Below, piece after piece: positions 26,745-28,895 of a stretch of 59,917 nucleotides of DNA (the first letter of the stretch is position 1; each line of letters begins with the position of its first letter). Under the pieces are notes generated by a model, which saw only the letters and a program-made list of their open reading frames with translations, was not told where the DNA came from and did no database searches. The stretch spans positions 1 to 59,917 of the forward strand of contig DAIDKV010000179.1 in assembly GCA_027449865.1 (NCBI GenBank), in the 5' to 3' direction. The DNA comes from Planctomycetales bacterium. GTDB taxonomy: Bacteria > Planctomycetota > Planctomycetia > Isosphaerales > Isosphaeraceae. A program made the position numbers and the translations under genes.

Positions 26745-26976
26745 ATGATAGACACATCCAACGGACAACGGCTCTGCGTCTCGGCCTTACCTGACGCGGC
26801 GCCTTACATCGACCTTCCCTTGAGTCAGGTTGAAGAGGTCTGCAGGCGACTCGATCGAGCGGGGATCTCCTACTGGGGCCATCTCGATCGATGATGAGCC
26901 CGAGACGACGACCATCAACTTCAGCCGATATATAGACGCGGCGCGGATCCAGGCGGCCCTGGACGACATCCCTTGA
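26745..26976 (+). pseudogene. Small conserved protein split by a one-base frameshift
   Basis: The first part reads MIDTSNGQRLCVSALPDA-APYIDLPLSQVEEVCRRLDR-AGISYWG and then hits a stop at 26892-26894. In the next frame, directly from 26878, the text continues sensibly as AISIDDEPETTTINFSRYID and on to a stop at 26974-26976. From memory, a family of about 70-90-residue planctomycete proteins shows the same order: Val-rich start, 'GPYI', 'RYWVDE', then 'AISxDGGPE' and a C-terminal helix. So one base seems to be missing in the 'tactggggcc' stretch. It is either a real pseudogene or a sequencing error. A start at 26736 is equally possible. The HEPN-like gene follows 7 bases later. Confidence 0.6.
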
Positions 26977-26983
26977 AGGCGAG

Positions 26984-27658
26984 GTGCTGGTCGTGTCGCT
27001 CGGCGTCGAGATCCAGGACCTCTCGAATCGGATTCAGGCCGATCTGATGGCGGCGCATGACGACTATCACCACACGAGACTGAGCTGGCGCCTCTTGAGG
27101 GCGCAAGCCAGGCGTGGCATCCGCTTCACCGTCAGGAACCTGATAACGGGGACGACCGTGAACGAGAAGCTGTTGATGGACCTGTCGGGGCATTACGAGT
27201 CCATCCTCCTCGCCGAGTCCGTCTTCCAGCACTTCATCGCCCTCTTCGAGGACTTCGTCTTCGAGTTCCTCCGCCTCTGGCTCGCGGCCCATCCCGCCGG
27301 CATCCCCAACAAGGAGCGGAAACCCGTCGACCTGGCGACGGTCATAGACGCCCCCGATCGCGAGGCCATCCTCCGGGCCGTCATTGATCGGGAGCTGAAC
27401 GCCCTCAAATACGAGCGGCCGACGGCCTGGTTCCGCTACATCAACGACCGCGTCAAGCTCGGCGTCCCGACCGACGAGCAGCTCGAGCGGTTCGCCGAGG
27501 CGAAGGCGACCCGCGACATCCTGGCCCACAACCGGGGCGTCGTGAACCCGATGGCCCAGGCGCCGCGGCGTGAGGGGACGCTGGGCAAAATCAGCCTGAG
27601 CCCGATCGCCGCGGCGTTGCGTGCCCAGGCCGAGGAAGATCCGACGGACGCGGTCTGA
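26984..27658 (+). CDS. HEPN-like helical protein
   Basis: The 224-residue product is nearly all alpha-helical. It contains SVFQHFIALFEDFVFEFLRL, WFRYINDRVKLG and RDILAHNRG, where Arg177 and His182 give the R-x(4)-H motif of HEPN domains, which are RNases in many toxin and defence systems. The start is probably GTG at 26984 (a second GTG is at 26993). It is 7 bases downstream of the frameshifted small gene and presumably co-transcribed. After the HN motif the C-terminal 40 residues do not match any pattern I know. The toxin role is inference; no antitoxin such as MNT is adjacent. Confidence 0.68.
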   Translation: MLVVSLGVEIQDLSNRIQADLMAAHDDYHHTRLSWRLLRAQARRGIRFTVRNLITGTTVNEKLLMDLSGHYESILLAESVFQHFIALFEDFVFEFLRLWLAAHPAGIPNKERKPVDLATVIDAPDREAILRAVIDRELNALKYERPTAWFRYINDRVKLGVPTDEQLERFAEAKATRDILAHNRGVVNPMAQAPRREGTLGKISLSPIAAALRAQAEEDPTDAV

Positions 27659-28019
27659 GGGACAGAAAACGAGAGCCGAGGCAGGCTGATCCGTGATCGC
27701 GGTGCGCGCCGAGCCAGCGTGGAGACCGCACGAGGCCACGCGGACGACGAATCCGCTTGGTCAAGAGGCCGAAATAACGGCCACCTGCCCGGTGCAATCA
27801 TGGGTGTCCCGCAAAAGTTGCAACGACAACGCAAGCCTCTCGGATACGGAAGGATGCGGCACTGTGGATCCCGCACGCGAGGAGCAGACAGACACTCCGA
27901 CTCCTCGGGCCGTACCTGTCACCATTGCCCATCCACGCCCGTCCGATTATCCTGGCACGATCTCGATCCGCGGGGGTCGTGCTTTGATTTCGGGATCGAT
28001 CACGGGGGGGGAGCGGCGG
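27659..28019. other. Gene-free gap upstream of aminotransferase gene
   Basis: No convincing gene, tRNA or repeat is seen in these 361 bases. Open frames exist on both strands but their translations lack protein-like composition or recognisable motifs. The last bases (GGGGGGGGAGCGGCGG) serve as the ribosome binding site of the next gene. Confidence 0.5.
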
Positions 28020-28895
28020 ATGCAGGTTCTGGCATGCCTCAATGGAGAGACGATGCCCGTCGAGCAGGCGCGCGTCCCCGTCTGGGATCGCGGCTTCCTC
28101 TTCGGCGACGCGGTCTACGAGGTCTGCCGGATCTACGCGGGCCGGTGCTGGCTCGAAGACGCCCACTTTGCCCGACTCCGCCGGAGCCTCGCCGAGCTGG
28201 AGTTCCCGCCCGTCGACATCGACCGCCTCATCGATCGTGTCCACCAGACCATCGCCGCATCGGGCGTCGGCGAGGGAACGGTCTACATGCAGATCACGCG
28301 AGGGGTCGCGCCCCGGGCGCACGCCTACCCCGACCCTCCCGTCGAACCGACCGAGCTGATCGTCGTCCGGCCTTATGACGATTCGGCCACCGCCCGACTC
28401 CGAGAGTCAGGCGCCCGGCTGCTCAGCCATCCCGACCTGCGCTGGAAACGGTGCGACATCAAGACCACCAACCTTCTCGGCAACTGCATCGCGACCGAAG
28501 CCGCCCACCGCGCCGGCTGCCATGAGGCTGTCCTCATCGACGCCGACGGATATGTCACCGAGTCGACGCATACCTCGCTCCTCTGGGTGCGCGGCGGTCG
28601 GATCGAGGGAACGCCCGAAGGCCCCGAGATCCTTCCCGGGACGACCCGGCAACTGGTCCTCCGGCTGATCGAGCCGCTGGAAATCCCGTTCGCCGAAACA
28701 AGGGTGACGCTCGACGAACTGGCCGCGGCCGACGAGGTGATTCTGGTCGGGACGACCACGGAGGTTGTCCCCGTTGTCCGTGTGGACGATCGGAGAATTG
28801 CCGCGGGGAGCCCCGGACCGGTCGCCGGTCGACTCTGGGAAGCTTATCGCCGGGCGGTCGAGGGCTGGCTAGCCGGCCGCCCCTCCCTCGCCTGA
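28020..28895 (+). CDS. Aminotransferase class IV (D-amino acid/branched-chain type)
   Basis: The 291-residue product has the fold-type IV PLP enzyme pattern. WDRGFLFGDAVYEV lies at residues 22-35, the PLP-binding Lys148 in KRCDIKTTNLLGN, Glu near residue 182 in VTESTHTSLLWV, and a C-terminal PLP-phosphate loop (EVILVGTTTEVVPV). The sequence is closest in style to D-alanine aminotransferase, but ilvE- or pabC-like specificity cannot be excluded. The ATG at 28020 is preceded by a strong GGGGGGAG site. The frame remains open to 27693, but the family starts here. The glycosyltransferase-like gene follows after 30 bases on the same strand. Confidence 0.9.
   Translation: MQVLACLNGETMPVEQARVPVWDRGFLFGDAVYEVCRIYAGRCWLEDAHFARLRRSLAELEFPPVDIDRLIDRVHQTIAASGVGEGTVYMQITRGVAPRAHAYPDPPVEPTELIVVRPYDDSATARLRESGARLLSHPDLRWKRCDIKTTNLLGNCIATEAAHRAGCHEAVLIDADGYVTESTHTSLLWVRGGRIEGTPEGPEILPGTTRQLVLRLIEPLEIPFAETRVTLDELAAADEVILVGTTTEVVPVVRVDDRRIAAGSPGPVAGRLWEAYRRAVEGWLAGRPSLA

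Follow-up and report, generated by a model that had tools for sequence, protein, structure and literature searches.

Does the gene pair at positions 26745–27658 encode a working two-gene unit in which a small protein is completed by a shift of reading frame, is it what is left of such a unit, and what would an intact copy do? The window analyzed here is the whole stretch of 59,917 nt, and all the features described below lie on its forward strand. A first-pass annotation of these letters had seen a HEPN-like gene behind a small partner gene that ends early, and had offered two readings of the partner, decay or a programmed frameshift at the stretch tactggggcc, adding that loss of the partner would matter if the HEPN protein is a toxin. 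We examined the occurrence of the pair in related genomes, the sequence and predicted structure of both products, and the state of the window copy.

Occurrence of the two-gene unit

The small gene belongs to a family of proteins of about 80 aa, and the intact HEPN protein has about 230 aa. A query with the HEPN protein matched 12 of 59 genomes, the source genome included, and just upstream of all 11 complete in-frame HEPN genes found in this way, the window copy being excluded, there was an open small-gene frame (in one case truncated at the start where the contig ends), which bears out the proposal that the two genes are linked in other genomes. Across 392 genomes of the phylum, the small-family profile matched five and the HEPN profile seven, with the source genome in both sets. 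The two genes are adjacent and both open in G313 and G322, which belong to another family, and the HEPN matches in G284, G323 and G321 have no visible small gene next to them. A scan of genome contigs for the small family, which required an intact small motif, retrieved 15 loci (12 planctomycete MAG contigs, Aquisphaera insulae, Singulisphaera acidiphila and one Opitutales MAG), and at least part of a HEPN gene adjoins the small gene in 14 of them; the locus from S. acidiphila is without HEPN gene. The taxa with the small gene directly upstream of a HEPN gene are Planctomycetota plus the single Opitutales MAG.

The unit is patchily distributed, with several copies in some genomes, and its other neighbor genes vary, as judged by eye, among the seven loci listed. 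In the closest relative, G003:C97, from the same genus, blastn places the unit at the same site and between the same flanks, which in the window are an ApbE-family gene and an aminotransferase gene. The source genome is 99.4% complete, and no second match to the HEPN or the small family was found in it. Two variants in arrangement were seen: in G008:C127 (L003:2073-2794), two tandem small-partner genes precede one HEPN gene, and in L070:1866-2927 an intact pair is immediately preceded by a nucleotidyltransferase-like gene (NTP_transf_5, E 1e-6; AbiEii, E 1e-5). This AbiEii-like gene was set aside, since by eye it was not seen among the genes listed at six other loci.

Scanning viral contigs with the window protein returned 13 stretches that match the pattern, none of them a relative, and phages gave no HEPN match. 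Plasmids gave no match to the small protein and five records with distant HEPN matches; no small gene was visible in three of these five, those with gene tables that we inspected. Among the matches listed in literature searches of titles and abstract starts, we found no description of this pair. Through this locus, a two-gene unit comes into view that recurs, in some genomes in several copies, and has no name in the family libraries searched.

Motif and predicted fold of the HEPN protein

A feature of the HEPN superfamily, as described in PMC3710099, is the motif Rx4-6H with a polar residue after the arginine. This pattern occurs in the window as RDILAH (codons 27512–27529), the R-x(4)-H motif already noticed in the first-pass annotation, as well as in alignments A2, where the R, D and H are invariant in 13 of 13 rows, and A6, where R, then D or N, and H are found in all 10 rows, giving the form R-D/N-x3-H. 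The tyrosine of the extended motif RX4HXY, two residues after the histidine, is absent from every row of both alignments (13 in A2, 10 in A6).

The HEPN models of Pfam matched neither the window protein nor the 13 A2 rows. Likewise, nothing convincing for the close family was found in Pfam (A2 rows and A3 rows, the latter from the small family), PADLOC (A2 rows and one small protein), NCBIfam (two HEPN proteins and one small protein) or PHROGs (three HEPN proteins and one small protein), nor among PDB sequences searched with the A2 and A3 profiles; neither protein is named by any of the profile libraries searched.

The predicted model of the intact HEPN protein from L070 is helical, with a mean pLDDT of 90. 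Foldseek returned no PDB match at E 0.001 for this model or for that of the small protein. The top VIA-align matches of the L070 model were 6m6w, 2hsb, 8xdj, 7bxo and 1ylm (Z 9.6-8.9, rmsd 3.4-4.2, 126-135 residues); the first four of these (Z 9.4-9.6) have titles naming MntA/HepT or HEPN, and the fifth, 1ylm (YutE; Z 8.9), is presumably also a HEPN protein. Designed GPCR-like bundles and rhodopsins follow (Z 7.7-8.2), and the tool itself cautions that, for helical bundles, Z values below about 13 may lack specificity, so the fold match is not decisive by itself. The model suggests a HEPN fold for the intact protein, and the downstream gene had been rightly called HEPN-like.

The small protein and the proposed function of the pair

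The model of the small protein (pLDDT 89) shows a loose resemblance to ACT and PII folds, with Z up to 6.2, and the protein has no convincing Pfam family match. A loosened pattern for the motif GSX10DXD was found in none of 15 A3 rows and none of 15 A5 rows; identity as an MNT-type antitoxin was rejected on the missing motif.

The small domain was also seen fused to the front of another protein, in L048:1402-2421 (G036:C244), which we took as Aquisphaera insulae. Stand-alone relatives of the second part of this fusion (L092, L093, L094 and L104) are located immediately upstream of similar genes. One of these, the gene in L092, was tested and has a PIN_12 match at E 2e-5, short of the cut-off; in L048, the PIN-like gene seems to carry a frameshift. 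The fusion may be accidental; judging by its gene context, it again puts the small module beside a probable RNase.

In the mechanism that we propose, an intact unit would encode the small protein just before the HEPN protein with its R-x4-H motif. The HEPN protein would most likely act as an RNase toxin or an abortive effector, and the small protein would bind and restrain it, by analogy with type II toxin-antitoxin pairs. The sequences show the gene order and linkage, the conserved motif, the missing MNT and HXY signatures and the damage to both genes of the window copy, whereas RNase activity, toxicity and neutralization by binding are inferred. The intact family is probably an undescribed HEPN toxin-antitoxin-like system. 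More tentatively, the family could be one of toxin-antitoxin or defence systems, found mainly in Planctomycetota, in which the HEPN RNase of about 230 aa is checked without nucleotidylation by a loosely ACT-/PII-like protein of about 80 aa, perhaps being released by a ligand or by infection, and in which other RNase toxins may likewise make use of the small module, for instance in the PIN-like gene context of the genome taken as A. insulae; we would put this fuller picture at somewhat less than an even chance. If the toxin-antitoxin-like reading is true, the pair can be tested directly; its damaged copies hint at which of the two genes can be dispensed with.

A pair with no toxin-antitoxin role, in which the HEPN protein would bind or process RNA and the small protein would be a regulatory or ligand-binding subunit, would suit the loose likeness of the small model to ACT and PII folds, which bind small ligands. 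Nevertheless, all 13 A2 rows and all 10 A6 rows retain R-x4-H, and the unit is patchy, multi-copy in some genomes and set among neighbors that vary by eye, and we consider such a pair unlikely.

Decay of the window copy

Both genes of the window copy are damaged. The N-terminal piece of the small gene (26745–26894; 49 aa, from ATG 26745 to an early stop at 26892-26894) matches positions 1-44 of the small-family profile A3, built from relatives, at E 9e-11, whereas its C-terminal piece (26878–26976), which runs in the next frame over 26878-26973 to a stop at 26974-26976, matches positions 48-79 at E 1e-10. With both matches near E 1e-10, the split gene is real, far beyond chance, and the open reading frames and profile matches together confirm a small gene that ends early and has its family-typical C-terminus in the next frame, with a stop 7 bases 5′ of GTG 26984. 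The frame breaks at 26871–26880, although the G run leaves its exact position ambiguous: where the window reads GGCC (4 nt) between TACTGG and ATC, all four aligned relatives have 15 nt, or five residues, and are ungapped and in a single frame across the site. This net loss of 11 nt, in a gene that otherwise matches well, costs about four residues of a well-conserved stretch. Since the relatives read in one frame and a shift of frame cannot return lost residues, the break is, from this alignment, a deletion and involves no recoding; the suggestion of a decaying partner was the correct one of the two put forward.

The homologous part of the HEPN gene extends over 26984–27551, with 74% identity over 185 codons to G003:C97, and its likely start is GTG 26993, which fits the N-termini of relatives better than GTG 26984. 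The blastn match to G003:C97 (L002) ends at 27551 and, from 27552, the sequence corresponds to the 3′ end of an insertion element that carries a DDE_Tnp_1 transposase (27552–27842; 87% DNA identity to G003:C464, in which the ORF of the element matches Pfam DDE_Tnp_1 at E 2e-14). The open reading frame is therefore a chimera, in which HEPN sequence reaching to 27551 is followed by an in-frame transposase tail, PMAQAPRREGTLGKIS..., that ends with the stop at 27656-27658; the first-pass annotation had not noticed this second break. The junction is base-precise, and the right end of the element is, as read by eye, common to the copies in G001 and G003. As measured on G003:C97, the window protein has lost 45-48 C-terminal residues and keeps R-x4-H; the lost region contains the last helix, residues 205-231, in the predicted model of the intact relative L070. 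A complete HEPN domain is thus absent from the window copy, where homology stops at 27551 and the last-helix part is replaced by the transposase tail.

Past the element, the stretch 27902–27929 is a possible leftover of the HEPN 3′ end, by local alignment to the HEPN tail of L002. Its resemblance to the G003 HEPN 3′ end has p 0.001 in 2000 shuffles, and in a narrower comparison 13 of 5000 shuffles were as good; from this resemblance, the sequence suggests that an insertion element entered the HEPN gene and that deletions occurred afterwards. Nearly the same stretch is present in G001 (93 of 5000 shuffles as good), where the HEPN tail that should follow is also missing, so the HEPN damage may predate the split from G001, though this is only a hint because the G001 contig ends there. 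When G001, G002 and G004 were searched for the 5′ flank together with the small gene and the HEPN part, the G001 matches covered only query positions 32-1398, before the small gene. In a comparison of 26993-28892 with G003, dS was 0.88 in the HEPN part and 0.24 in the downstream aminotransferase gene, which could reflect recombination or fast evolution.

Because the HEPN protein is truncated and fused to a transposase remnant, it is unlikely that a working toxin was set free by loss of the partner. In the course of events that we envisage, the insertion element probably entered the 3′ region of the HEPN gene and deletions left the fused tail; the small gene lost its 11 nt. Loss of the partner is tolerable where there is no complete toxin.

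The source genome is a draft in 278 contigs, and insertion elements are often a source of misassembly, but a loss of 11 nt is atypical for a base-call error, the downstream flank is collinear with both G003 and G001, and the right end of the element agrees with its other copies; an assembly or sequencing error behind the 11-nt loss or the chimera is consequently very unlikely. The frame is open through the HEPN/transposase junction and dN/dS of the window HEPN part is 0.17, compared with 0.19 and 0.20 for pairs with an intact HEPN gene, which gives no sign of decay (the frameshifted HEPN gene in L083 has 0.41), as might be expected if the chimera were still functional or newly domesticated. 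Nonetheless, the chimera lacks the region corresponding to the last helix of the L070 model (residues 205-231), an in-frame tail is expected by chance in one third of cases and most of the divergence measured may predate the damage, so that we regard a functional chimera as highly improbable. Still further from plausible, to the point of being negligible, is a programmed +1 frameshift that fuses both pieces into a full small protein: although the second frame is open up to the expected stop, the pieces fit consecutive parts of the profile and their dN/dS values against G003 are low (0.28 for the first and 0.24 for the second), the shift would not restore the 11 nt and the four or so residues that the four aligned relatives carry in frame, and no slippery signal of a known type was seen at the break. 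A programmed shift at tactggggcc was discarded, the site not being conserved and the full protein being encoded in one frame in those relatives.

Decay of the window locus is, at the level of sequence comparison, well supported; the locus is a fossil, and no exotic recoding is needed to account for it. Altogether, we consider it reasonably likely that what survives in the window is a defunct member of an undescribed toxin-antitoxin-like two-gene family, composed of a HEPN RNase and a small partner that is not of the MNT type.

Distribution of damage between the two genes

To see which gene breaks, we classified 34 loci, hand-picked from the searches of genomes and genome contigs for the HEPN and small families after merging duplicates on the same contig; the distant HEPN genes without visible small gene (G284, G323 and G321), the plasmid records and the transposase locus G003:C464 were left out. 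Both genes are open, adjacent and in the order of type II systems, with the small gene directly upstream, in 18 of the 34 (the small gene being cut by a contig end in one), and the window keeps this order with both genes broken. The small gene is open and the HEPN gene broken or absent in seven, whereas none has an intact HEPN gene with a broken small gene. The small gene is broken in four: G019:C345, G005:C43, a second small gene that lies at a contig end in G019:C217, and the window, the only one of the four with a HEPN part. The remainder comprises three atypical small matches without HEPN gene (G036:C244, G002:C30 and G260), one partial match in both genes (UBA8133) and one HEPN fragment without small gene (G034:C6).

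The asymmetry of seven to none is the pattern expected of a toxin and its antitoxin. It lends weak support, because the HEPN gene is about three times longer than the small gene, so that by rough arithmetic a probability of about 0.13 is obtained for seven to none from length alone, because the scan required an intact small motif, and because most loci with a broken HEPN gene come from MAGs and may contain assembly errors.

Comparison with known HEPN systems

Among described systems, PADLOC RTasHEPN, in which a HEPN gene lies beside defence-type reverse transcriptases, is approached by the distant relative L067, with a weak match (E 1e-5), and by L112, where a HEPN relative is located downstream of an annotated RNA-directed DNA polymerase gene; the A2 rows, however, have no match to it and their partner is the small gene. 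The L112 stretch (L112:662-3558) comes from the Aliarcobacter faecis plasmid pAFAEC. The RiboL-PSP-HEPN family (PF18735) is similarly matched by a distant relative, L110, from a Rhodococcus opacus plasmid (E 9e-5, under the cut-off), but by neither the window protein nor the 13 A2 rows.

A pairing of MAE_18760, a HEPN protein, with a ParA/Soj ATPase is proposed in PMC3710099 as a HEPN dyad whose first gene is not an MNT. The present unit also has a first gene of non-MNT type, although here the partner has only about 80 aa and no convincing Pfam family. The same source describes the antitoxin-first order as usual for such pairs.

HEPN/MNT (HepT/MntA) shares with our unit the gene order, partner first and HEPN second, the R-x4-H motif and the structural matches of the L070 model (6m6w, 7bxo, 8xdj, 8yuf and 8xeh). 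The two differ in that the partner here, of about 80 aa, lacks GSX10DXD and the HEPN protein lacks the tyrosine of RX4HXY, and also in size, about 230 aa here versus 124-134 aa in the solved HepT/HEPN chains. In HepT, it is this tyrosine that receives AMP, according to PMC7641770. With neither the HepT tyrosine nor the MntA motif, the partner bears no signature of the known adenylylation route, and an antitoxin role, if real, would work differently, most simply by binding, which would be another way to restrain HEPN RNases.
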